IMG/VR virus record: IMGVR_UViG_3300014050_000018
Coordinates: 52,293 to 76,922 of that record
From: a virus
Direction: 5' to 3' (one strand)
Length of the DNA: 24,630 nt
Shown: in pieces, positions 1,374 to 23,922 of the stretch
Position numbering within the stretch: position 1 is the first letter of the stretch
Layout of the letters: every line of letters begins with the position of its first letter
Notes under the pieces: generated by a model
The model's database searches: none
What the model was told of the DNA's origin: nothing
Seen by the model: only the letters and a program-made list of their open reading frames with translations
Position numbers and translations under genes: made by a program

Positions 1374-1385
1374 TGGTATAATACG
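1374..1385 (+). promoter_or_regulatory. Extended -10 promoter-like element before thioredoxin
   Basis: The gap between terminase and thioredoxin contains TGGTATAATACG, a perfect TATAAT preceded by TGn, the extended -10 arrangement. No convincing -35 hexamer sits 16-18 bp upstream. A start of transcription near 1390 would leave a leader of about 26 bases before the thioredoxin ATG. The same 12-base string, with one difference, forms the -10 region of the kinase promoter at 8920-8909 on the other strand. Confidence 0.6.
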
Positions 1386-1395
1386 TACCGTATTA
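1379..1395. repeat. Short inverted repeat overlapping the -10 element
   Basis: TAATACG-TAC-CGTATTA is a 7-bp perfect inverted repeat with a 3-base centre. It overlaps the second half of the TATAAT element and the predicted start of transcription. It could be an operator or a small 5' RNA hairpin. It has no following T-run, so it is not a standard terminator. Confidence 0.5.
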
Positions 1396-1415: not shown

Positions 1416-1736
1416 ATGACAGATCAACAATTCAAGTACAGAGTTGTTTTCTTCCAACAACCAGGATGCGTGGCCTGCAATACCATGAAGCCGGTGTGGG
1501 TCGACGCCGCTAACGAACTCTCCGAAGAGTACCCTCACTACTCCATCGGGTTTGGTGAGTGGGACGTTACGTCAGACAACTGGGCGTTCTGCGACCAGAT
1601 CGAATGCGACGGCACTCCGAACTTTGCCGTGTTCGATGACGAAGCTGAGCTCCTAGGTATAAATACCGATGGGATTCTTGCGAAAACCCAGCTCAAGGAC
1701 TTCATCATCGGCGCCATAGAAGAAGCCAAAGAATGA
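1416..1736 (+). CDS. Thioredoxin-like protein
   Basis: A 106-residue thioredoxin-fold disulfide reductase, about the family's usual length. The redox motif is C18-V-A-C21 followed by NTMKP, matching the CxxC...KP helix start of thioredoxins. The cis-proline loop appears as GTP at 66-68, followed by the strand NFAVF. The usual WCGPC is replaced by GCVAC, so redox potential and partners may differ from host thioredoxin. Two further cysteines (59 and 64) precede the cis-Pro loop. No signal peptide is seen, so it should act in the cytoplasm. Phage thioredoxins may support ribonucleotide reductase or act as polymerase factors; nothing here decides between these. No good Shine-Dalgarno sequence precedes the ATG. 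Its TGA overlaps the ATG of the sigma gene (ATGA), which suggests translational coupling. Confidence 0.85.
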   Translation: MTDQQFKYRVVFFQQPGCVACNTMKPVWVDAANELSEEYPHYSIGFGEWDVTSDNWAFCDQIECDGTPNFAVFDDEAELLGINTDGILAKTQLKDFIIGAIEEAKE

Positions 1737-2485
1737 CAGCGAACTACACGACCAAGCCTAGAAGAGGCTCTTGCCGTGAGACGGAGCGGGACAAGCAGAT
1801 CATCTCGCAGATGTGGAAGGCCAATCAGGTGGCTAGGAAGATCTCCAGCTTTACCGGGTTGCCATACGAAGAGCTTAGGGACGCCGCGCTCGAGTACATT
1901 GTGCGTATCTACGATTCCTGGGACCAGAGTAAGGGCGCCAACTTCTCCACATGGGTGAATAGGTGCTTGCAGTTCCACATGCTGAACTATCTTCGCGACA
2001 ACTCCCGCCTCGTGAAGATCCCACGTTCCTACTCCGATCTCTACCTGAAGATCCGCAAGTACATAATAGAAAATCCTGACATCACCGACGACCAGATTGC
2101 GGAGAAAGTGCAGGTCTCGGTGAAGAAGATCCGGGCTGTACGCCAGGCCTTCTCGATGAGCTTCTCGCAGATCACGGAGTACTCCAACGTGATCGAGCCG
2201 GACTACGAAACCGAGCTCACAATGGGTGATCTGATGACCTCCCATAAGGACCTACTGCATAAGATCACAGACCTCGAGCCTGATGACGAGACTTTTCTCA
2301 CGGACTACCTCGTGAAGAAGAGGAGCGTCTCCACCCTGCTTCGTAAGAACCCCCACCTTCGTAACGCGGAAGACATCAGACGCTACTCGGAGCAGCTTAT
2401 AGAATTCATCCTATGCGACACTCCGTATCCATCCAAGATCATACCTACACCAAAAGCGGTTTCGAGAAAAAGTGGAGCGAAGTAA
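1733..2485 (+). CDS. Phage sigma-70 family RNA polymerase sigma factor
   Basis: A 250-residue sigma factor that should bind host core RNA polymerase and direct it to phage promoters. Sigma region 2 spans about residues 27-100. It includes GLPYEELRDAALEYI, the WDQSKGANFSTWV segment (2.3-like, aromatic and basic) and YLRDNSRLVKIPR at 86-98, which closely resembles the end of region 2 and start of region 3 in SigF/SigB-type factors. Region 3 follows, with ITDDQIAEKVQVSVKKIR at 117-134. The C-terminal part (about 175-230) has no clear region 4 helix-turn-helix for -35 recognition and is either divergent or replaced. The ATG overlaps the thioredoxin stop by 4 bases. The last 73 bases overlap the next gene in another frame. 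It could be the late-transcription sigma of this phage, analogous to T4 gp55; that role is inferred. Confidence 0.82.
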   Translation: MTANYTTKPRRGSCRETERDKQIISQMWKANQVARKISSFTGLPYEELRDAALEYIVRIYDSWDQSKGANFSTWVNRCLQFHMLNYLRDNSRLVKIPRSYSDLYLKIRKYIIENPDITDDQIAEKVQVSVKKIRAVRQAFSMSFSQITEYSNVIEPDYETELTMGDLMTSHKDLLHKITDLEPDDETFLTDYLVKKRSVSTLLRKNPHLRNAEDIRRYSEQLIEFILCDTPYPSKIIPTPKAVSRKSGAK

Positions 2486-7528: not shown

Positions 7529-8260
7529 TCAGGCGACGGCAACGACCGTGGCCAGAGCCGCGGTCTTCTGAGTAGCGCCGGTGGAGACGGTGGTGTTGAC
7601 ATTGAGAGCGACAACCTGACCGACCTTGAACCCACCACCGGCTGTGGTGATGGATCCGATCGCGGTGATCTTGCCCGCTGTGAGGGTGGCGGTGGCCACA
7701 CCGAAAGCGTAACCGGCGGGATTGGTCGTCTCGGTCGACTCGATCTTGATCGACACTGTGCCAGTGGTCGTGGTACCATTTGTAGTGTAGCCGCTTCCCT
7801 GCTTCTCGAGTGTGAGGGTTACCAGGCCACCAACAGGGGCTTGAGGGGCGGGAACAACTTCGGCGATAATCGCGGAGATGACTTCGGCTAGGTTGAATGT
7901 AGCGACCATGAAGTGAAAATCCTCCTCGCCTTCCATGCCCACGTAGCGGGTAACGTTGACGAGCAAGTCGTTGATCGCGGTCTTGTCAGTGGCGGGGACA
8001 TCAGCGTTGGCGTTGAGGGCCTCGCAGATATACTCGAGAAGGCCGTAAGCGGCTTTCTTCGCCTCGAAGCCCATTGTAGGCCCAGCCTTGACAAACGAGT
8101 TGTAGAGCGCGAGGCGGTTGGCGGCTGTGTTCGATCCGTTGGAGTAGGATGAGACGAGGGCGTCTGTACGGGCCTCGTCCAGAAATTCCTGAAGCTTGAT
8201 CTTGTACTCGAATTGGATTCCGAGTGTGCGATATAGACCTTGGTTTAGAATAGTAGCCAT
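7529..8260 (-). CDS. Putative virion protein, Gly/Thr-rich C-terminus
   Basis: A 243-residue protein not assigned to a family. Residues 1-135 are mainly helical (FEYKIKLQEFLDEARTDALV, AKKAAYGLLEYICEALN). A short Pro-rich hinge VVPAPQAPVGG (135-145) leads to a beta-type half rich in Thr, Val, Ala and Gly. That half includes GSGYTTNG and ITTAGGGFKVGQVV, which resemble the GxGY repeat units of phage tail and fibre proteins. A virion role (tube, decoration or tail component) is inferred from composition and position. It lies 12 bp upstream of the hub/hydrolase gene on the same strand and 54 bp downstream of the kinase gene. The gap before it holds a GTTTAAAG motif and an AT-rich -10-like stretch, so it may have its own promoter. 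No strong Shine-Dalgarno sequence is visible; GGAAG lies about 13 bases before the ATG. Confidence 0.75.
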   Translation of the reverse strand: MATILNQGLYRTLGIQFEYKIKLQEFLDEARTDALVSSYSNGSNTAANRLALYNSFVKAGPTMGFEAKKAAYGLLEYICEALNANADVPATDKTAINDLLVNVTRYVGMEGEEDFHFMVATFNLAEVISAIIAEVVPAPQAPVGGLVTLTLEKQGSGYTTNGTTTTGTVSIKIESTETTNPAGYAFGVATATLTAGKITAIGSITTAGGGFKVGQVVALNVNTTVSTGATQKTAALATVVAVA

Positions 8261-8304: not shown

Positions 8305-8320
8305 CGATATATCTTTAAAC
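8305..8320 (-). promoter_or_regulatory. GTTTAAAG plus GATATATCG element before the 243-aa gene
   Basis: Read on the minus strand, GTTTAAAG (8320-8313) runs directly into ATATATCG. Its TAA is the stop codon of the kinase gene. The same octamer precedes an A/T-rich stretch ending in CG at 9029-9048 and 10286-10304. The role as promoter is inferred from that recurrence and from its place 45-60 bases before the ATG at 8260. Confidence 0.4.
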
Positions 8321-8902
8321 AGAGATAAGACGATCGAGCAGATCGAAATCCCGGTCGGTGTCGCGAAGGACGGTATGCGGGAGAAGGGAGTAGTGGTTGA
8401 GGTAGTTATGCATGTAATCGTAGTAGGCGTAGTGCTCGGCCTCACGCGCCTTCATCTTATTCTTGATCCACCAGGCCGTGGCGTCCGGGTACTCCTCTCG
8501 TACCTCGATGAGATGGTGGGGCTGGCTCCATTCCCACTCCCGCTCGAGAAGGAACACTTTCACGTCCGAACTACGCTCCAGGAAGTAAGACTCAGCGGCT
8601 TGGGCCCACTCGTGGGAGATAGAGATCCGCCTACGAAACTCGTCGTAGAAACAGACTTCAGAGAACCCACGATCGCACAGGATGAACTCCGGCATCGTCT
8701 CCAAGACGGAGTCGAAGGGCCCGATGTACTGCCCGATGGGACTGGAGTGGCAGGGCTTGGGGCCGGAGAAGTGCAAGGCGGTGGCGTCAATGTCCCGACG
8801 CCGGAATCGCTCGAGGGTATTCTCGATGATGGTGGATTTGCCGACTCTATCAGCTCCTAGCAGAACGACTGTAACGGGTTTGAACATCGGAAGTGAGATC
8901 AT
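8315..8902 (-). CDS. P-loop nucleoside/nucleotide kinase-like protein
   Basis: A 195-residue P-loop protein, in the size range of thymidylate and deoxynucleoside kinases. Walker A is GADRVGKST at 16-24, directly after the strand VTVVLLG. EFILCDRGFSEVCFYDEF at 72-89 fits the DRx motif and following helix of the dTMP/deoxynucleoside kinase family. KVFLLERE (115-122) is the next core strand. It would act in the cytoplasm on deoxynucleotide supply; the substrate cannot be fixed from sequence, and a polynucleotide kinase or other adenylate-kinase-like role is possible. ATG 8902 lies only about 3 bases from the start of transcription predicted by the strong upstream promoter, so the mRNA may be leaderless or the true start may be ATG 8887 (190 residues, beginning MFKPVTVVLLG). 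It is the first gene of the leftward block. Confidence 0.72.
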   Translation of the reverse strand: MISLPMFKPVTVVLLGADRVGKSTIIENTLERFRRRDIDATALHFSGPKPCHSSPIGQYIGPFDSVLETMPEFILCDRGFSEVCFYDEFRRRISISHEWAQAAESYFLERSSDVKVFLLEREWEWSQPHHLIEVREEYPDATAWWIKNKMKAREAEHYAYYDYMHNYLNHYSLLPHTVLRDTDRDFDLLDRLISV

Positions 8903-8911
8903 AGTAGTCGT

Positions 8912-8941
8912 ATTATATCATGGATTTTGGCTCGTGGTCAA
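8912..8941 (-). promoter_or_regulatory. Strong sigma70-type promoter for the kinase block
   Basis: On the minus strand, TTGACC (8941-8936) is followed by an 18-bp spacer and TATAAT (8917-8912). A TGn directly before the -10 gives TGATATAATACG. The -35 matches consensus at five of six positions and the -10 at all six. This is the best host-type promoter in the window and should fire leftward into the kinase, 243-aa, hub and basic-protein genes. Predicted start of transcription is near 8905. Confidence 0.8.
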
Positions 8942-8943
8942 GA

Positions 8944-8959
8944 GCGCGCGCTGGCGCGC
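8944..8959. repeat. GC-rich palindromic element upstream of kinase promoter
   Basis: GCGCGCGCTGGCGCGC contains the inverted repeat GCGCGC-TG-GCGCGC. It lies two bases upstream of the kinase -35 box, inside an otherwise AT-rich gap of 166 bp. It may be an operator or a barrier between the divergent promoters. The function is unknown. Confidence 0.5.
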
Positions 8960-8992
8960 AAACGCCCGTAGCCCAGTGCATAGTAACTTTTT

Positions 8993-9026
8993 TACTATTA
9001 CTTTTTACTAACGTACTAAAATACTA
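8993..9026. repeat. Four TACTA repeats in the divergent intergenic region
   Basis: TACTA begins at 8993, 9006, 9014 and 9022, the last three at an 8-base period, with an inverted TAGTA at 8981. The repeats fill the AT-rich stretch just before the GTTTAAAG element of the rightward gene. They could be a binding site for a phage or host regulator; low complexity of the AT-rich spacer is the alternative. Confidence 0.4.
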
Positions 9027-9028
9027 AA

Positions 9029-9048
9029 GTTTAAAGTAGAGATATACG
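9029..9048 (+). promoter_or_regulatory. Candidate phage promoter before the 113-aa gene
   Basis: GTTTAAAG (9029-9036) is followed by TAGAGATATACG. The arrangement closely matches the element at 10286-10304, where GTTTAAAGTA is followed 3 bases later by TATACG (4 bases here). No host-type -35 is seen. The ATG at 9069 is preceded by an AGGA Shine-Dalgarno at 9063-9066, leaving room for a short leader. Confidence 0.45.
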
Positions 9049-9068
9049 ATTTTGTACAGAGCAGGAAC

Positions 9069-9410
9069 ATGCCCGCTACTCCGCAACCTCCTTACCACCG
9101 CTGGGGGGTAAGATTCACAGCCGATCCCACACACAACCTGGCCTACCTTCAAACTGAGCACGACGAGGATGCCTCCTTCGTTTACAGAGGCGAACTCTTT
9201 CTCAATGAGGCACTCGACCAGGCGTACTACGTCGACAGCACCGGAGTGGCGAGAAAGCTCGGCGGCAGGGACCCAGTTCCCTTCTCGCAGATCGATTTTA
9301 CAGGATTACGTAACTTCACCGACGATGCCGCCGCGGCAGCCGCGTCACCCGCCGTCCCAGTTGGTGGAATGTACAGGACCGGAAGCGCGCTCAAGGTCCG
9401 AGTGGTTTAA
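9069..9410 (+). CDS. Small hypothetical protein, possible virion component
   Basis: A 113-residue protein with a good Shine-Dalgarno (AGGA) five bases from the ATG. The first 25 residues are Pro-rich (MPATPQPPYHRWGVRF). The middle has YRGELFLNEALDQAYYVDSTGVARKL. The end carries an acidic/Ala run, DDAAAAAASPAVPVGGMYR, then TGSALKVRVV. A 'D-A-rich, VGG-Y-R, alternating VRV' ending is one I associate with small phage structural or fibre-associated proteins, but I cannot name the family. It sits alone between a candidate promoter and a rho-independent terminator, so it may be a single-gene transcript. Its TAA is inside a GTTTAAAG motif. Confidence 0.72.
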   Translation: MPATPQPPYHRWGVRFTADPTHNLAYLQTEHDEDASFVYRGELFLNEALDQAYYVDSTGVARKLGGRDPVPFSQIDFTGLRNFTDDAAAAAASPAVPVGGMYRTGSALKVRVV

Positions 9411-9412
9411 AG
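9405..9412 (+). promoter_or_regulatory. GTTTAAAG motif over the 113-aa stop codon
   Basis: A fourth exact copy of the octamer found at 8320-8313, 9029-9036 and 10286-10293. Here it is followed by ATTGTCAGG, with no clear -10 sequence, so it is the weakest promoter candidate. It may simply be the end of the gene. Confidence 0.25.
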
Positions 9413-9464
9413 ATTGTCAGGATGTGAAAACACTTCTACATGTCCCATAAGCATGGATTAGAGT

Positions 9465-9506
9465 GACCCGAAGGCCCGAGGAGTTAGTAACTCCCGGGTC
9501 TTTTTT
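9465..9506 (+). terminator. Rho-independent terminator after the 113-aa gene
   Basis: CCCG-A-GGAGTT-AGT-AACTCC-CGGG forms a stem of ten pairs with one bulged A and a 3-base loop, followed by TC and six Ts (9501-9506). An outer GACCCG at 9465 can compete for pairing with CGGGTC. The hairpin plus T-run reads rightward and ends transcription from the 113-aa gene about 95 bases past its stop. The T-run ends 25 bases before the PhoH start codon. Confidence 0.85.
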
Positions 9507-9531
9507 CGCACCTGCACTAGATGTAAATCTC

Positions 9532-10278
9532 ATGGCCAGAAAATCAACACGGAAACAGCGCCAGCTCGAGGATAACAATCTGCTCTCGTCGGAAAGCACA
9601 GCTCCGCAGCCTAAGTTCCAAGAAAATCGTGTTATTATGCCTCGCAATCCCAACCAGGTGGACGCGATGAGATACCTGCGCACGAAAACTCTAACCCTTC
9701 TCTCAGGGCCCCCGGGCACCGCTAAAACCCTCCTTGCTACGTACATTGCCTGCGAAAAGTTACAGAAACGTGAGATCGACAAGATCTACTACGTGAAACC
9801 GGTTGTCAATGTCCCAGGCGAGCAGGGCCTAGGCTTCCTGCCAGGCAACCTCGACGAGAAGATTGCGCCCCATATCAGCCCGATCCGCGACTCGTTGGAG
9901 GTGTTCATGCCTAAGGGCAAGGCCGAGTACCTCCTCTCGAAGAAGCACATCGAGTTTCTCCCCATCGAGCACCTCAGAGGACGTTCGCTGCACCGCTGCA
10001 TGATCATCGCCGACGAGATGCAGAACGCCACCACGCATAGCGTCATGACGATTCTCACCCGCCTCGGGGACGGATCGAGCGTGGCGGTACTGGGAGACGT
10101 AGTCCAGCGCGACCTGGCCAACCGGTTCGGTGGAGATGGCCTATCCGACGCTCTCAATCGCCTTCGCTTCCTCCCGGATGTGGGGCATGTTGAGTTCGGG
10201 TTTGATGACATTGTCCGCTCGGAATTTGTTCAGTCCGTCATCAGAGCGTACGCCGATCTGTATACCTCCTCAAAGTAA
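9532..10278 (+). CDS. phoH: PhoH-like ATPase
   Basis: A 248-residue cytoplasmic P-loop ATPase of the PhoH family, near the usual length for phage copies. Seen: NQVDAMRYLRTKTLTLLSG (41-59) leading into Walker A GPPGTAKT (59-66); YVKPVVNVPGEQGLGFLPG (87-105), a family hallmark; IEHLRGRSL (145-153); Walker B MIIADEMQN (157-165); TRLGDGSSVAVLGDVVQRD (176-194); and FGFDDIVRSEFV (222-233). I chose ATG 9532. A GTG at 9463 would add 23 residues, but those codons lie across the terminator hairpin and carry no family sequence. No Shine-Dalgarno is evident. PhoH is widespread in phages, especially marine ones; its function in infection is unsettled, with links proposed to phosphate stress or RNA metabolism. 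Confidence 0.92.
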   Translation: MARKSTRKQRQLEDNNLLSSESTAPQPKFQENRVIMPRNPNQVDAMRYLRTKTLTLLSGPPGTAKTLLATYIACEKLQKREIDKIYYVKPVVNVPGEQGLGFLPGNLDEKIAPHISPIRDSLEVFMPKGKAEYLLSKKHIEFLPIEHLRGRSLHRCMIIADEMQNATTHSVMTILTRLGDGSSVAVLGDVVQRDLANRFGGDGLSDALNRLRFLPDVGHVEFGFDDIVRSEFVQSVIRAYADLYTSSK

Positions 10279-10285
10279 CGAGAGG

Positions 10286-10304
10286 GTTTAAAGTATACTA
10301 TACG
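10286..10304 (+). promoter_or_regulatory. Candidate phage promoter before the 1179-aa virion gene
   Basis: GTTTAAAG (10286-10293) is followed by TATACTATACG, in the 41-bp gap between PhoH and the 1179-aa gene. It shares GTTTAAAGTA and a downstream TATACG with the element at 9029-9048. Transcription from here would begin about 10 bases before the ATG at 10320. Confidence 0.45.
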
Positions 10305-10319: not shown

Positions 10320-13300
10320 ATGCCCAAGTCAAAAAGCGGCGGAAGACTGAGAACCTCCAGAACCCAACCGATTCCTTTCTCCCAGAGAGACAGCGCCGGG
10401 ACCGAAGTCAAGTACTTTGGTCTCAAGCGCGACGAAGCTCTCAGCGACCTAGAGTCTAATGACAAGGCACTGGCCGAGGTTCTAAGGGACATCCAGGATC
10501 CGGCCGAGGCCGCCACTCTTGGGCAGTTCGGTCCGTCCGACCTGCAGATCCTCGACGGTGTTGTTAGATTCGACCTGAAGAAAGAGGACTTCGAGATCCT
10601 AGAGGGCTCCTCCATCAACGCCGAAGACAGCCAGGGAGTATCAGCGCCCCTCGTCAATCCGCGTCAGCGTATCGCGGATCGCATCGCGCAATCCGAAAGA
10701 TTCGCCGGGCGCGGAACAAACTACCAGGGCCAGGGCACCGTCCTCTACAAGTACTACGTTCCGGAAACCCAACCAGTCGGCTCCTCGAATAAGTACTCGC
10801 ATACCAACTTACCTCCGTTCTTCACCGAGGCGATCACCTCCACCGTGGAGAACTCCGCGGACTTCGTCCCCACTACCTCAACGCAGATCTCCAACACCCA
10901 CCGTATAGGCTACATCGAGAACGGCGTGTTCGTACCCGAGTCCGAAGTCGAGTACTGGTGGAGCGGTGAGTACGACCACTACATGAACGACGTCTCCGAG
11001 TACGGAGGACAGACTCAGTCGGCTCTAACTAACCCCAAGTTCCCTATTGTTCGGGACGGGAACATGAGATTCGATCAGCTCGCGCCTCGCGGGATCAACA
11101 CTCGGTATAACTGGGGACTAAGATTTGACGCCTGGTTCAGGAGGGGGGACTTTACGCCAGGCTCTACAATGATGAGGTGGGCGGCGCAGGTAAACGGGCA
11201 CCTTCGCATTGACTACTTTGAAAAGACAGGATATAACTCGACAACGGGCGCCATTGAGGGAGTCTGGAGAACCGCGCTTAACACCGCGGATGCCGCAACC
11301 CACTACACCCAATTATCCAAAGAAAGCGCCTCACCCAACGCTTTGGGCGGCCGCCTGTACTACGTTCAGGGTGGGCCTACGACCCCGCTGGGCACCGGTA
11401 CAGGAACCCTGGCTTCCCAGCGTTCGTTAGCCAATGGCGGGGCCTTAGATCTCGCCGACACCTACCTCGATAGGGAGGGGAATACCATCAACACCTTTAA
11501 TGGGGACTACGTTCCCGTAGTGATCCGTTTCTGGTATGGCCAGCCCTCTACTGACCCCACGCAGACAAATATCGCAACAAAGCAGCCTTTGGGCCCCGCA
11601 GCATTCTTCATCCAGATGCTGGATACCAATCTATCTACAGCGGATCTGGCCAAGTGGAACGACTACTCCTCCCAGCTCAAGCTAACGTGGAGTTCGGCGC
11701 AGAGCGCTTGGTCCGTTGATACCTCGGCGGGCGGTAGCGCCGCTGGAGAGGCGAATTTTGCGAACTACAATCAGAACTTCGAGGTTGTCGCATACACTCC
11801 GATCGGTTCAGCAAAACCGTCAGCTTTGACTGGGTACACCGTTCCGGCAACTGTGATCATCGGCGCTAAGGGCACCCCGGTGAGCGGAGTCACGTACACG
11901 ACCTTTAGCATCTCCGGCCTCAACCCCACCAACGGTCAGACTATTTGGGTCGTTGCGAGAAACAGGCCATTTAACGTGGTCCCGGGTTCATCCACGACTC
12001 GCTACGTCACCTCGATGTGGCAGAAGTACCTATTCAACCCGTCGCCTACGGACCGGTACCGGAACGTGTACGACCTACTCGAGAACGTGGGAAGCAACTA
12101 CGCGGAGCCAAATCCGGCGAAGATTCCGTTCGAGGAGAACCTGGATCTGTACAAGGCTACGTACGGAAGCCTTCCTACCCTAAATACGTACACGTCGTCG
12201 CGGTACGATGGTATGGTTCCTAACTCTCTCACCACATCCAACACTCAGAGAGACTACGACTATAACCATTCCAAGCTCCTGATGATCGGACGGCAGAAGA
12301 AGGGAACGGTGTCGGAGATTGGCACCACCGCCCCTTACTCCGGTAAGAATCTGGTGGCTGGTGAGGTTCGTAAGAAGGGACAGAATTATACCTTCATCGA
12401 GGTGGTGGAGAACGCTGCGGGATTCGGTGGGAACGTAACAATTAACGCGTATCCATCCAACGACCTGGGTGTCATAGACACGGCGTCATTGACGACTTAC
12501 GGGAAAATGCTTCACATGATGGATAATAAGAAAACTTTTTCTTCGTCCACAAGGCAGAATATCTCCTCGGTGCAGCTTAACAAGCTTCCCTCCGACGCCA
12601 ACTTTGCGTCCACCTCGCGCGTACTCTACGAGGAGGTTGACGGAGTGGGACGTCTGAGCACCGGAACTTGGAACGGTTCCGCTTTCACCTACGACAGCAC
12701 CGGCATTATCGCCCAACTGGTGATGGGGGCAACGACAAGGAACCACGCGTCCAAATCCATGTTCCTCGTGGCCTTTACTAAAGGCTCCACGGACTACAGC
12801 TTCTACGGACTGATCGGAGCTCAGCGTACCTCATTCCAGGGCGTGACTCTAACGGTGAACTCCGGCGGAACTACAATCACATCCGCCTCGGGTGTGTTTG
12901 TTCCGGACTCATCAAATTCCAACAACAACCAGTACATAGGTTCGGAGATCTACTTCCCCGGTGATGCTACAGTGCGAAGGGTGACTTCGTACAACGCTTC
13001 CACCGGCGTGGTTACTTTCTCCCCGTCGAAAACGGCAGGGCAGTATACCGGGTGTGATGTCTGGTACAATCACTTCCAGCTCGGAGGCGTACTACCTTCG
13101 AACATTGTTAACTCCTCCGGTGGTAAGGTATCCAGGACTAGCGTTATTCCCACTCCGAGCGGGGGAAATATATCCGACCGACTTGTTCAGATTCGCTACG
13201 TTTTTAACTCAGCGTACCAGTTCCTCAGAGCAGACAGCGGCGCCGGGCTTAGCTTCGGCGAGACGCTGTACGTAAAAGCTTCCACATCCCCGACTCAGGC

Positions 13301-13859
13301 CCAGCCATTCACATCCGATACAGAGCTTCCCGCTCCACCGGCCGATATCGTTGTTCCGTTCGGCTACGATAATACGACAGGGGCGTCCGACCCGGGCCTC
13401 GGCGGCCTATGCTATCCTCCCTACTCGATACAGAACATCGAGCTTCAGGGCCTTGCTAGAACCGACTCATCGCTGTACGCGGCTACGGAGGGAAACTTCG
13501 ACGTGTGGTGGGGCGGGAGAATCGGTAATCCCTCCGACTTGGCCCAGAGGTACCTGTACGTAACTGACAAGTTGATGTTCGACTTCTCGGCGTCGGAGAG
13601 AACGAATCTTCTGACATCTCTGACAACCGCTCAAAAGCCCGTGTTTACAGGTTCGGAGTACACCCATAAGCTGGAGGTGGAACTTAATGTTGGCCTGCCT
13701 ACAAACTCCTCAACGGCAGTAAATGCGAATATCTACAACGACGCTCGCCTGCACTCCAATAACAAACCCGTCAAGGACAAGTACTACCTATTTATCAAAA
13801 GGCAAAGTGGGGGCAATCAGCTGAGTGTTCTCTCAGCCAACAACCCCTCCTGGACTTAA
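10320..13859 (+). CDS. Large virion structural protein, likely tail fibre or baseplate
   Basis: A 1179-residue protein without a family assignment I can make firmly. The first 130 residues are charged and mostly helical (VKYFGLKRDEALSDLESNDK). From about 130 it becomes beta-rich, with many Tyr, Asn, Ser, Thr and Gly residues, as in phage fibres and baseplate proteins. A segment near 262-320 (NWGLRFDAWFRRGDF, MRWAAQVNGHLRIDYFEK) resembles a PA14/lectin-like sandwich, which would suggest glycan contact; this is tentative. NGQTIWVVARNRPF near 540-553 looks like a fibronectin-type strand end. Residues about 840-920 contain DATVRRVTSYNASTGVVTFSP, a beta segment like those I recall from other phage structural proteins. 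It is the only giant virion gene here on the + strand. Its TAA interlocks with the stop of the convergent 790-aa gene. GAGAAG just before the ATG is a weak Shine-Dalgarno. Confidence 0.72.
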   Translation: MPKSKSGGRLRTSRTQPIPFSQRDSAGTEVKYFGLKRDEALSDLESNDKALAEVLRDIQDPAEAATLGQFGPSDLQILDGVVRFDLKKEDFEILEGSSINAEDSQGVSAPLVNPRQRIADRIAQSERFAGRGTNYQGQGTVLYKYYVPETQPVGSSNKYSHTNLPPFFTEAITSTVENSADFVPTTSTQISNTHRIGYIENGVFVPESEVEYWWSGEYDHYMNDVSEYGGQTQSALTNPKFPIVRDGNMRFDQLAPRGINTRYNWGLRFDAWFRRGDFTPGSTMMRWAAQVNGHLRIDYFEKTGYNSTTGAIEGVWRTALNTADAATHYTQLSKESASPNALGGRLYYVQGGPTTPLGTGTGTLASQRSLANGGALDLADTYLDREGNTINTFNGDYVPVVIRFWYGQPSTDPTQTNIATKQPLGPAAFFIQMLDTNLSTADLAKWNDYSSQLKLTWSSAQSAWSVDTSAGGSAAGEANFANYNQNFEVVAYTPIGSAKPSALTGYTVPATVIIGAKGTPVSGVTYTTFSISGLNPTNGQTIWVVARNRPFNVVPGSSTTRYVTSMWQKYLFNPSPTDRYRNVYDLLENVGSNYAEPNPAKIPFEENLDLYKATYGSLPTLNTYTSSRYDGMVPNSLTTSNTQRDYDYNHSKLLMIGRQKKGTVSEIGTTAPYSGKNLVAGEVRKKGQNYTFIEVVENAAGFGGNVTINAYPSNDLGVIDTASLTTYGKMLHMMDNKKTFSSSTRQNISSVQLNKLPSDANFASTSRVLYEEVDGVGRLSTGTWNGSAFTYDSTGIIAQLVMGATTRNHASKSMFLVAFTKGSTDYSFYGLIGAQRTSFQGVTLTVNSGGTTITSASGVFVPDSSNSNNNQYIGSEIYFPGDATVRRVTSYNASTGVVTFSPSKTAGQYTGCDVWYNHFQLGGVLPSNIVNSSGGKVSRTSVIPTPSGGNISDRLVQIRYVFNSAYQFLRADSGAGLSFGETLYVKASTSPTQAQPFTSDTELPAPPADIVVPFGYDNTTGASDPGLGGLCYPPYSIQNIELQGLARTDSSLYAATEGNFDVWWGGRIGNPSDLAQRYLYVTDKLMFDFSASERTNLLTSLTTAQKPVFTGSEYTHKLEVELNVGLPTNSSTAVNANIYNDARLHSNNKPVKDKYYLFIKRQSGGNQLSVLSANNPSWT

Positions 13860-19696: not shown

Positions 19697-22600
19697 TACT
19701 GTTCCTTATAGTTGAGCGTTACGGACATTGTTCCATTGACTCCCGCGGATAGGTTCCTGGCGATCATAAAGAGCGCTTTATTACTCCAGAAGCTGGGTCC
19801 CACGGACTCGGTGTTGATATTGAAGATATCGGAGAGGTCAATTTCCGTCGGCTTATTTGCTGACACAAAGAACGACGCTATAGGATCTCCTGATTCTTTA
19901 AACTCCAACCAGCGGATCGGATAATCCCCGACTCCGGAGAACCCGGCGCCAGAGAGGATGTTATTGCTGATGAAGCTAGGGCACTTCTTCCTGCGATCGA
20001 GGCCTGTGGACCCACTTACATCGTAGTAGGAGTACTCCGCCGGAGTTAGAGTTCCGGGGTGGCTGTAGGCGATCATGGACTTCTTCGCGGAGTTGGTGTC
20101 GTCCGAGGACCCCCCGTCGTGAAGGTCGGGCTGTCCGTTTGTGTTGTTAACGCTTAGCGTGCACCCGTGCGGAGTGAACGGGGTCTGGATCACGCCGTTG
20201 GGAGTAACCTGGCCCACGGTCATGCCTCCGATCTTCGCTCCCTCCCTCATCCTCACAAAGAATCTGATCGGGAAGAGGTTCTGGCCGACGATTTTCTGGG
20301 TTAGAAGACGGGCGTCAGGGCGAAGTAGGTCGGGGATGTAGAGGGCGATCGCTCGGTACTTGGCGGTTATCTGCGTATCGTTGCTAAAAGCCGAACCACT
20401 GATAACAACAACTGGGAGAAGGAAGAGGCGAACGCTGGTTCCGGCGGGGGTGTAGGACTGCTGGGCGGTGCCGGCGGTAGTTCTTACTGTGATGCTCGCG
20501 CCGTCGGAGTCCCTCTCCACAAAAATCGTGTTGGAGGCCGCCCAGAGATCCTGGGGCCATGGGGACGTTTTTGAGAGGTAGTAAACCCCGGCCGCTAAGG
20601 CTCCATCAACTCCAACAGCGGTGAAAGTGGACAGCTCCTTAATCTCCCCGGCTTTGCCGTAGAAAGCGTGGCAGCTTCCACCTTCAGTCCCAGGAACTCC
20701 TGGAAGCTGATCGTCGATGATTCCCACGGAATCGAACAGTCCTTCTCCGAGTTCAAGTCCGCCATCTCCGACGTTGAGCCAAGCGGACTGATTAACCGCG
20801 AGGACATTGTCCTTAACCGCGTCGGAATCGAGGTTGATGGGTAGGCCCTCGTAGTAGCGGTAGCTGGAGCTGTTAGGCACCGTTTTGTCTACTACGTAGT
20901 AATTTCCGGAATCCTCAAGGATTCTGACATCAAAACTGTCGGAGCTCAGGCCGGCTCTGTCGGAAGCGTCTTTGGGATTGATGATGCCAAAGTTAGAACC
21001 AACTCTGCCCCTAGAGACTATGGAGTTGGGATAGGTGTAGGAGGCTGGATTTTCCTGGGGCCAGACAATGCCGATCTGCATCTCGCCGAAGTGATTGCCA
21101 TCGCAGCCGAAGTCGGCGTTGGATACACCGCATGTAAGCGAGTAGGAGTCAGTTGACTGCGGAGTGATCCTATTGAAAAGCAGGTAGAACTCGTCGGTCG
21201 TGATATCCACTGTCGACAACAGAGTCGTATCCCGGCGATATCGCGACAGCTTCAAGGAGACGTTCTCATTAAACCTGAATAGAAGCTCGGCGCTGGACCA
21301 TGGGCGATTCTTACTCTGACCGATATACGATCCCGAACCGATATCGCGTTGGAGAATGATCTCCGGGCCACTAATACCGCTGGGGGAGCCCGAGTGCTCC
21401 TGAGTCGGATTAACGTAGCTTACGTAAACTCTGTCACCGACGAGGTGCGATCCCATCAGAGAGTTGCGATACGCTCCCCAGCCAATAAACGACCCGCCAC
21501 TTCTGAGGTTATCGGAGGCGGATGGGAAGGCCGTGTCGGGTCCCACGTAGGTTAGCGTAGGCACCGGGGAGTCCTTATCCCGCCCAAGGGCCACAAGTGT
21601 CGACTCGTTTTTCTGCAGTCTGTTGATGCTGAACACGCCCCTCAGCCTTTGCTCTTCCGGAAGGACGCATGTGTAACCTTCCTGGAAGGTGTAAGCGTTC
21701 TCCCTGCATCCGTACTGATTGACGAACTTCACCTCGACGTCAGTGGTAGAAGTTACTGACATCGACACTGGAAACACCTCCTTCTTATTCGGAAAAGAGC
21801 TCCCCTCAGTGTTCACAATGTACTGCTTGGGTTTTAGTCCGAGAACGCTGGACCAGTCATAGATGGGAACGTCGACCGAATCCGACGAGATAGCTGGAAT
21901 GGAGCGGTTGGTAGCCTTGCCACTAGAAAGGGCTATCGTACCCTCATCTCCTCCGTCGATGTAGTACGAAGCTCCGTACTTCTCCACGAATTGAGGTAGG
22001 CGAATGCGGCTTGGGCTGTCCACGTACGCTCTGTACTTAAAGAAGAAGAATGGGTCCTCAAGGCAGGGCTGACCGAGCTGGTTCTCGATAACGAGAGTGT
22101 GCACCGTAACCCATCTCGATCCACCGTTGCCGGTAGGGATGTACATGTAGAACCTAGCTCCGATGGCACCGTACCATCCGAACTCGATCTTGTACATGGT
22201 AACCGTGTCGGGGTTGAAGATATAACCGCTCTCTCCCTGACCGTTGAGCCCATCACCATTCATCTGGTTCTGCTGGATCGCCGTCTCGTAGACCTTAGTG
22301 ACTCTGCCAGCGCGAACCCCTTCCTCCAGCTGCAGCACTTCGGAGTCGGAGAGAAGGTCCTTGTACTTAACAACTCCAGTCAACTGGGAGATGTAGGCCT
22401 CGCGCTCCCGATACTGGGCCTCAATAAAGAGGTCGGTCTGCCCCAGGGGCACGGTGGATCTTCTTACGACAGAGAAGTCAGTTCCGTCCTGTAGTCTGAA
22501 GAAGTAGCCGTCGGTGTAGTTTTCAACGCCCCACTCCAGAAGCGAGCCAGGGCCAGCCCCTTCCTCGGAGATTCGCACACCGTAAGTAAATCCGCTTATC

Positions 22601-23922
22601 CGACCCGGCTGGTAGCGAAAGGCTCTGATGGAGGTTAGCGTGATGACCGCGTAGTTGGACTCTCTACCACCAATAAGGTTGCCATCGGCCAGTGGGTTGG
22701 AGATCTGCGGAACGGTTACGTCAGAGAAGCTCTGCGGCCAGCTCTGGCCGAAGATCAGCGACTGAGCCGGAGTGAGCGACGTGATCAGGAAGTAGGGAAG
22801 CTTGTAGTCAATAACGTACTGAGGAACCTGGCTCTGAGACGCGTATACCTGAAACTCCCAGTTCTTAAGATCTGTGGGAAGCGAGTCGTAATCTATTCCC
22901 CAGTACTCCGACCATACGTCGGGGTTGGAGTTTGTGGCGATTCTGTAGTGGCCCTGATCGGGCTCCCTCCAGGTATACCGAGTTGTAGCAAAGAAGAACT
23001 TATTGAAGTTTACGCTAACGCTCGCCTCCTCGGCTGGAAGGTTGGCGCTGAACAGCGATACCAGATTAATGGTGTCTTCGCCGGTTGCTGGGGCAAAATT
23101 AACCAATGTGCCCTGGGGGATAATGGGAATATTTCCGGCAGACTCAAAACGACCTTGATTGATATCCAGCCAGATCTGATCCCAGTAGAGCCGGTTGAAT
23201 TTCCCGTCGGGGGTCTTAGGATACTTCTTCTCAAGGAAGTTCAACCTGAAAGCGTTTTTCTGCTCCTGAGAAAAGTTGTTTACCATGTACTCGACAATGT
23301 ACATGGCAACTAGGGACTGGATGTACCGTCCCCATCCGGGTCCAGGATTGTCCACAACTCCTCTTATTTTGTTATAGACAGGAGGGTTACCAGGATCTGT
23401 GTAGGGCGCTGGATAGGAGTCGAGTACAATAGACGATCCCTCGGAATAATCACGGTCTCTAACAGCGATGTGTGGTCCGGCGGGAGAGTTTTTGCTGTCC
23501 CAGTAGTCACTTTGTCTCCACTCAGTCCAACTGGAGTAAACCACCCAGTCCTTTCTATCAAGGCCGTAGGAGCTTACGTCGTCGAAAAGTCCCTGCTGAG
23601 TCTCACCTCGATCGATGCCAAGCAACGAGCGGCTAACAGCGCTCTGCTCGGCGAACTGCTCGATAACAGGAAGGGCCGCTGGGCGACCCTTGCTGTAGAT
23701 GTTGCGAGTGGAAAGGCCATCTGTCCGATATGAATCCGAATCGGCCACCACGGCCACTGATCCCTTGGAAAGGTAGTCGGGTGGGTAGTATACGTCCTTC
23801 TTAGAGATCAGCGTGTTGCCTTCGTCGGAGAAGAGCGAGCTTCCCCGATAGCTGATCATCTGTAACTCTTTTTCGTAAGTCCTAACACCCGTCTTCTGGG
23901 CTTTAATGCGGTACTGAGCCAT
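19696..23922 (-). CDS. Giant virion structural protein with WYGAIG module
   Basis: At 1408 residues this is the longest protein in the window. It is beta-rich, with many aromatic residues and no signal peptide. A stretch near 572-625 (TMYKIEFGWYGAIGARFYMY, TGNGGSRWVTVHTL) is a module I associate with virion structural proteins of marine T4-like cyanophages, followed by PFFFFKYRAYVDSP. Other recognisable pieces are RAFRYQPGRISGFTYGVR near 435-452, where 'R.F.YQPGR..G.TYG' also recalls phage structural proteins, and HPGTLTPAEYSYYDVSGS near 1298. Cysteines are few and scattered. A role as baseplate or fibre-anchoring protein is inferred. GGAGGAG lies about 12 bases before the ATG. The spacing to the upstream gene is 6 bp, and its stop overlaps the LRR start by one base, so the block looks co-translated. 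Confidence 0.75.
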   Translation of the reverse strand: MAQYRIKAQKTGVRTYEKELQMISYRGSSLFSDEGNTLISKKDVYYPPDYLSKGSVAVVADSDSYRTDGLSTRNIYSKGRPAALPVIEQFAEQSAVSRSLLGIDRGETQQGLFDDVSSYGLDRKDWVVYSSWTEWRQSDYWDSKNSPAGPHIAVRDRDYSEGSSIVLDSYPAPYTDPGNPPVYNKIRGVVDNPGPGWGRYIQSLVAMYIVEYMVNNFSQEQKNAFRLNFLEKKYPKTPDGKFNRLYWDQIWLDINQGRFESAGNIPIIPQGTLVNFAPATGEDTINLVSLFSANLPAEEASVSVNFNKFFFATTRYTWREPDQGHYRIATNSNPDVWSEYWGIDYDSLPTDLKNWEFQVYASQSQVPQYVIDYKLPYFLITSLTPAQSLIFGQSWPQSFSDVTVPQISNPLADGNLIGGRESNYAVITLTSIRAFRYQPGRISGFTYGVRISEEGAGPGSLLEWGVENYTDGYFFRLQDGTDFSVVRRSTVPLGQTDLFIEAQYREREAYISQLTGVVKYKDLLSDSEVLQLEEGVRAGRVTKVYETAIQQNQMNGDGLNGQGESGYIFNPDTVTMYKIEFGWYGAIGARFYMYIPTGNGGSRWVTVHTLVIENQLGQPCLEDPFFFFKYRAYVDSPSRIRLPQFVEKYGASYYIDGGDEGTIALSSGKATNRSIPAISSDSVDVPIYDWSSVLGLKPKQYIVNTEGSSFPNKKEVFPVSMSVTSTTDVEVKFVNQYGCRENAYTFQEGYTCVLPEEQRLRGVFSINRLQKNESTLVALGRDKDSPVPTLTYVGPDTAFPSASDNLRSGGSFIGWGAYRNSLMGSHLVGDRVYVSYVNPTQEHSGSPSGISGPEIILQRDIGSGSYIGQSKNRPWSSAELLFRFNENVSLKLSRYRRDTTLLSTVDITTDEFYLLFNRITPQSTDSYSLTCGVSNADFGCDGNHFGEMQIGIVWPQENPASYTYPNSIVSRGRVGSNFGIINPKDASDRAGLSSDSFDVRILEDSGNYYVVDKTVPNSSSYRYYEGLPINLDSDAVKDNVLAVNQSAWLNVGDGGLELGEGLFDSVGIIDDQLPGVPGTEGGSCHAFYGKAGEIKELSTFTAVGVDGALAAGVYYLSKTSPWPQDLWAASNTIFVERDSDGASITVRTTAGTAQQSYTPAGTSVRLFLLPVVVISGSAFSNDTQITAKYRAIALYIPDLLRPDARLLTQKIVGQNLFPIRFFVRMREGAKIGGMTVGQVTPNGVIQTPFTPHGCTLSVNNTNGQPDLHDGGSSDDTNSAKKSMIAYSHPGTLTPAEYSYYDVSGSTGLDRRKKCPSFISNNILSGAGFSGVGDYPIRWLEFKESGDPIASFFVSANKPTEIDLSDIFNINTESVGPSFWSNKALFMIARNLSAGVNGTMSVTLNYKEQ

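Follow-up and report, generated by a model that had tools for sequence, protein, structure and literature searches.

What is specified by an eight-base word that recurs at neighbouring gene borders of a virus genome? The question is raised by GTTTAAAG, an octamer found at four gene borders within 2 kb of a 24,630-nucleotide stretch of viral DNA (the window), which comprises bases 52,293-76,922 of the 76,922-base virus record IMGVR_UViG_3300014050_000018 (the own record, or G000). The primase and the sigma factor encoded here find their best annotated-phage matches (60% and 65-66% identity) in cyanophage S-TIM5, reportedly the subject of a 2012 paper by Sabehi and others, and in its isolated kin; these phages infect marine Synechococcus. 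The octamer is best explained, with a probability of about 0.7, as the core of a single-element phage late promoter that would lie at about -13 to -6 and be read by the host RNA polymerase with the phage's own sigma factor (window 1733-2485).

Five copies of GTTTAAAG are present in the window where 0.51 would be expected, and none of 100 shuffled sequences reaches five. If one mismatch is tolerated, 15 matches are found, about what chance would give (13.6 expected), so that the exact octamer is to be regarded as the unit. All five copies had been placed correctly in the initial annotation, and the four at gene borders are as follows.

8313-8320, minus strand: predicted late-promoter octamer GTTTAAAG, 52 nucleotides (nt) before the start of the gene at 7529-8260 (-); includes the stop codon of the gene at 8315-8902
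9029-9036, plus strand: predicted late-promoter octamer GTTTAAAG, 32 nt before the gene at 9069-9410
9405-9412, plus strand: predicted late-promoter octamer GTTTAAAG, 119 nt before phoH (ATG at 9532), with a terminator-like structured stretch in between; includes the stop codon of the gene at 9069-9410
10286-10293, plus strand: predicted late-promoter octamer GTTTAAAG, 26 nt before the gene at 10320-13859

All four are indeed aimed at the next gene, and the stop codons noticed within two of them are TAA at 8317-8315 and at 9408-9410. The three A/T-rich tails quoted in the initial annotation were read correctly, but their ending in CG is a local feature, which other copies in the own record and in S-TIM5 do not generally share. 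The fifth copy (19896-19903, minus strand) lies, as had been stated, within a coding region, in the reading frame ..SLKNQE..; S-TIM5 holds the same word at an apparently matching place (93152, frame SLKTQE), and protein coding therefore accounts for this copy.

Related records belong to two sister clades, one with GTTTAAAG (the T clade, which includes the own record) and one with GTTGAAAG (the G clade). Genes of the own record were taken from a simple caller, and those of S-TIM5 from the deposited annotation. The own record holds 13 copies of GTTTAAAG against one of a reversed-motif control, and 12 of the 13 precede a gene of the same direction (one of these, at 28442, stands before a reading frame that is absent from the gene calls). 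Whereas copies falling in genes as often as between them had been named beforehand as evidence against a promoter, the opposite was found: copies are concentrated within 60 nt upstream of start codons, where 3-4% of positions lie. This holds for 9/13 copies in the own record (binomial p = 2.6e-11), for 25/36 in S-TIM5 (about 4% of positions) and, in the other gene-called records, for the octamer of the respective clade in G009 (24/34), G026 (32/39), G025 (16/23), G031 (21/28), G021 (22/27), G016 (4/8) and G032 (4/10); the binomial p ranges from 6.1e-5 to 1.3e-41 across records. GTTTAAAG is the commonest of 560 8-mers of the same composition in both the own record and S-TIM5, and the clade's octamer is the most frequent upstream 8-mer in S-TIM5, G000, G009, G026, G025, G031 and G021; in G032 and G016, which are small fragments, it shares first place. 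Neither GTTCAAAG nor GTTAAAAG is enriched upstream of genes in any of nine records.

The genes that follow the octamer are not a random sample. In S-TIM5 it precedes 17 of 47 virion genes as opposed to 8 of 165 others (Fisher p = 1.6e-7; 212 coding sequences), and among genes with an upstream gap of at least 20 nt the figures are 16/27 and 8/87. Virion genes with a gap below 20 nt carry it in only one of 20 cases, and it is therefore no per-gene translation signal.

Conservation extends across the lineage and includes an exchange of a single base. Among the 35 related records counted, GTTTAAAG outnumbers GTTGAAAG in 18 and GTTGAAAG outnumbers GTTTAAAG in 16 (G034, with one and no copies, was excluded as uninformative), and the T or G octamer matches the clade in all 34 informative records. 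One record, G025, is mixed, with 23 copies of GTTGAAAG and 11 of GTTTAAAG, only two of the latter being within 60 nt of a start. The downstream genes of the window are as follows.

7529-8260, minus strand: gene following the octamer at 8313, matched in place and start sequence by the S-TIM5 gene at 105232-105987, whose annotation is virion structural
9069-9410, plus strand: gene of 113 amino acids downstream of the octamer at 9029
9532-10278, plus strand: phoH (PF02562, E 9e-55)
10320-13859, plus strand: gene of 1179 amino acids that follows the octamer at 10286; in S-TIM5 the gene adjoining phoH (98911-103089) is annotated as virion structural

Within 150 nt upstream, orthologues of 7529-8260 (48 loci) carry GTTTAAAG in 26 cases and GTTGAAAG in 20; for phoH (52 loci) the numbers are 29 and 14, and for 10320-13859 (30 loci) GTTTAAAG is found 20 times, GTTTAAGG six times and GTTGAAAG four times.

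The structure of the site was derived from column frequencies over 71 GTTTAAAG and 60 GTTGAAAG non-redundant sites. The columns preceding the octamer hold little information, there being no conservation of a -35 element, and about 12 columns after it are A/T-rich. In the G clade the site extends to GTTGAAAGC, with C in 80/84; the triplet TAR stands at exactly +6 in 38 of 84 copies near starts versus none of 16 copies inside genes, and a pyrimidine at +6 (85%) is followed by a purine at +7 (95%), as at an initiator. Median distances from octamer to start codon are 20-27.5 nt across the S-TIM5-like records, and nearly all start codons are at least 18 nt downstream. A gene with an alike N-terminus (approximately LRDFS.FGRDTQE) begins 6-9 nt after the octamer in G026, G025, G031 and G021, as does one T-clade gene (in G016). 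These starts fit a transcription start at +6 to +8, and such a gene would have a nearly leaderless mRNA.

The same pipeline was run on phages T4 and Syn9 as calibration. From T4 it returns the late promoter TATAAATA, with 21/32 copies near starts at a median of 25 nt, a distance like that of the S-TIM5-type octamer (27 nt), and from Syn9 it returns ATAAATAA (14/19 near starts). Distances between octamer and start do not differ from those of T4 (Kolmogorov-Smirnov p 0.17 for S-TIM5 and 0.78 for the G clade). The T4 late promoter is described as an 8-bp box at the -10 position, about one turn upstream of the start, with A/T-rich DNA below it and no -35 element (PMC2988020), and marine T4-like cyanophages are said to use a NATAAATA late promoter (PMC2984593). 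The octamer thus shares with T4 a single 8-bp element before virion genes, a similar distance to the start codon, the A/T-rich DNA, the lack of a -35 and a phage-coded sigma factor. It differs in the word itself (GTTTAAAG or GTTGAAAG rather than TATAAATA), in a sigma factor that looks three-domain rather than gp55-like, and in that gp33, which acts with gp55 and gp45 in T4, was not detected in seven records. With the NATAAATA promoter of S-PM2 and Syn9 it shares a similar distance and the setting of a cyanomyovirus late promoter, but the octamer is another one, and Syn9 has a gp55-type sigma factor and gp33. In function the element would resemble the T4 late promoter, from which its sequence sets it apart; it is most likely a phage late promoter, an ordinary kind of element, with a clean one-base switch across the lineage.

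By analogy with T4, the octamer would occupy about -13 to -6, the place of TATAAATA, as a single 8-bp element with no -35; an A/T-rich stretch would follow, and transcription is predicted to begin 6-8 nt past the octamer. It would be read by host RNA polymerase with the phage sigma factor bound, and this sigma factor, probably made earlier, would switch on the virion genes late. The octamer's position, direction, gene class, conservation and one-base switch between lineages are observed, as is the presence of a sigma factor in most related records; the late timing, the start site and the assignment of the following protein as reader are what we infer from the analysis.

1733-2485, plus strand: phage sigma factor of 250 amino acids, proposed reader of the octamer, with region 2 and, apparently, also region 3 and a C-terminal part that is sigma-4-like; the S-TIM5 homologue is 65% identical

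Homologues of this protein are present in 33 of 35 related records searched. Region 2 (PF04542) is above the cut-off in the window protein and is found in 25/25 rows of the family, in which Pfam detects region 3 in four of 25 and region 4 in none; cyanobacterial SigA is matched over regions 2-3. A predicted structure (mean predicted local distance difference test score 76; predicted template modelling score 0.34, which means low confidence in the domain arrangement) aligns with residues 357-604 of E. coli sigma-70, through region 4, at Z about 10-11 and a root-mean-square deviation of about 20. BLASTP gives no match of sigma factors of the window type to gp55 of T4 and only short, weak ones to that of Syn9. 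No match to the gp33 family (PF16805) was obtained in seven records, which comprised the own record, relatives and S-CBWM1; T4 and Syn9 were positive. The gp45 clamp (PF02916) was matched only in T4 and not even in Syn9, and this model may be too narrow. An apparent clustering of clade-separating sigma residues at 75-82 was dropped (permutation p = 0.21).

Several observations weigh against a single-element promoter read by this sigma factor. Of the 27 virion genes of S-TIM5 whose upstream gap is 20 nt or longer, eleven have no octamer within 60 nt (one has it at 84 nt), and a terminator-like hairpin stands between the phoH copy and its gene. The downstream element is weak in the T clade, where TAR at +6 occurs in 6/65 copies and there is otherwise only A/T bias. 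The octamer is without the A that a bacterial -10 usually has as its second base, and a promoter consisting of a -10 alone would have no need of the sigma-4-like part. Only 4 of 13 clade-separating residues lie in region 2.3-2.4, which by the same permutation test is not beyond chance. Finally, the T-to-G switch is confined to one branch of the sigma tree; it is therefore a single event, with which any gene of the lineage would agree. In this tree (39 rows) T and G labels come from whole-record counts only where these were made, the other rows being labelled by sigma closeness, so that its 'one change' is partly circular and the 34 records are the independent statement.

The reading initially adopted was a two-part promoter, with the octamer at about -23 to -16 as its upstream element, contacted by sigma region 3 or by a phage activator; the -10 would be the A/T stretch that begins 4-9 nt further downstream and reads TATARA in the G clade. 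The TAR at +6 of near-start G-clade copies speaks for it, as does the spacing of nearly all start codons, which fall just past the start site that it predicts (about +16). It was demoted to an unlikely alternative by the genes of four G-clade records and of G016 that start 6-9 nt after the octamer, upstream of that site, and by the T4 calibration, since TATAAATA shares the distance profile and distance alone thus needs no two-part model; the T clade is also without a fixed TATARA. Were the octamer instead the -35 of a group-3-like sigma factor, and did the -10 lie some 17 bp downstream of it, the sigma-4-like part would be accounted for, and the word resembles GTTTAA of sigma-B. The observed medians would, however, put the transcription start inside or beyond most start codons, and no conserved hexamer is seen at +14 to +22; this reading was rejected on distance and is hardly credible.

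Other explanations do without a sigma factor that reads the octamer. A T7-style promoter, used by a single-subunit RNA polymerase of the phage, was brought to mind by a T7-like copy, GACTCAGTATAG, at record place 20068, and a single directional motif before late genes would suit it; the polymerase family (PF00940) was matched in none of ten related records, complete S-TIM5 among them, although the T7 control was found, and the idea was rejected as having next to no likelihood. A binding site for a phage activator or repressor, as distinct from a core promoter, would agree with the palindromic TTTAAA core and with the back-to-back arrangement of some octamers, 0-1 bp apart. This is improbable, given that the octamers are directional towards genes, that no conserved sigma-70 promoter lies between octamer and gene, and that the distances resemble those of T4 late promoters. 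A translation signal in the leader RNA, to which the narrow distance to the start codon might point, has a very slight chance of being correct in view of the short-gap virion genes, the phoH copy 119 nt from its gene, and Shine-Dalgarno-like words that are not significantly rarer in octamer genes (24/146 versus 178/769, p = 0.08). The late-promoter reading stands as the best fit, and the initial suggestion of a promoter class distinct from the TATAATACG type, that of host sigma-70, is supported.

A promoter of this contrasting class is present in the window itself, where it has a -35 and precedes another gene.

8912-8941, minus strand: sigma-70-type promoter TTGACC-18-TATAAT(ACG) of the gene at 8315-8902, 11/12 matches; a TATAAT-like sequence is there in many orthologues

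GTTTAAAG is absent within 150 nt upstream of all orthologues of this divergent gene (0/49). A further TATAATACG-type sequence is located at 1376-1386 (+), shortly upstream of the thioredoxin-sigma gene pair, and the sigma gene itself may therefore be transcribed from a host-type promoter.

The DNA between the 9405 octamer and phoH has a structure of its own. In 9413-9510 (+) the 5′ part, GGATGTGAAAA, can form pairs with the T-run that follows the terminator-like hairpin and with the bases behind this T-run. In an alignment of 12 T-clade sequences, 11 of them distinct, 98.9% of cells pair, four of 16 pairs change on both sides, and none of 500 shuffles scores as high; G-clade loci also carry a T-run with a hairpin between octamer and phoH. 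An Rfam search of the window gave no match. The stretch is possibly a late-made small RNA or an attenuator of phoH.

Pairs of divergent octamers, placed back to back and 0-11 bp apart, are found in G025 (22805-22820 and 39694-39709), G026 (92342) and S-TIM5 (57041 and 122783; all in record coordinates), and at two G025 places they form the perfect palindrome CTTTCAACGTTGAAAG. From their sequence these are apparent two-way promoters. As to the own record, its gene content includes baseplate and tail genes together with those for terminase, thioredoxin, PhoH, ribonucleotide reductase and thymidylate synthase; the record is probably a fragment, because a relative with a 98%-identical PhoH spans 138,862 bases. 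Ten N directly before the first base of the window, inside the terminase gene, mark an assembly gap. A 'near' mode search of the window DNA against the 'phages' collection found no match.

Beyond these two clades, GGGTAAAA is the commonest upstream 8-mer of S-CBWM1 (NC_048106.1, whole record), with 26/34 copies within 60 nt upstream of starts at a median of 27 nt, and is from its sequence likely a promoter class of that phage. S-CBWM1 codes two sigma factors, either of which is a possible reader; one is homologous to the window sigma factor, at about 24-27% identity (E 3e-7). This phage thus offers a second contrast, after that of the two clades, in which a diverged sigma homologue goes with a different octamer at a similar distance from start codons. 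PSS2 has no dominant octamer, its top upstream 8-mer being found in 5/116 genes, and a further search, aimed at more remote sigma lineages with different octamers, again returned 89 relatives. No description of the element was found in the accessible portions of the literature on the S-TIM5 promoter and sigma factor, TIM5-like cyanophages, the octamer and cyanophage late promoters (including PMC10452541, PMC5780444, PMC7156551 and PMC3037559), and the 2012 S-TIM5 paper may contain one.

For the family, a tentative proposal, somewhat short of even odds, is that TIM5-like cyanophages carry out late transcription with a full three-domain sigma factor, without gp33 and from one-octamer promoters, that a change in DNA reading by the sigma factor accompanied the rewriting of about 20-40 promoters between GTTTAAAG and GTTGAAAG, and that S-CBWM1 is a third member of the same system. 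If true, this would provide two natural sigma-promoter pairs. The T/G switch of the sister clades would be a natural test of the joint change of a sigma factor and dozens of promoters, and of which residue reads the fourth base. With the octamer, likely late transcription units could also be mapped genome-wide in the whole lineage, including many uncultured fragments.

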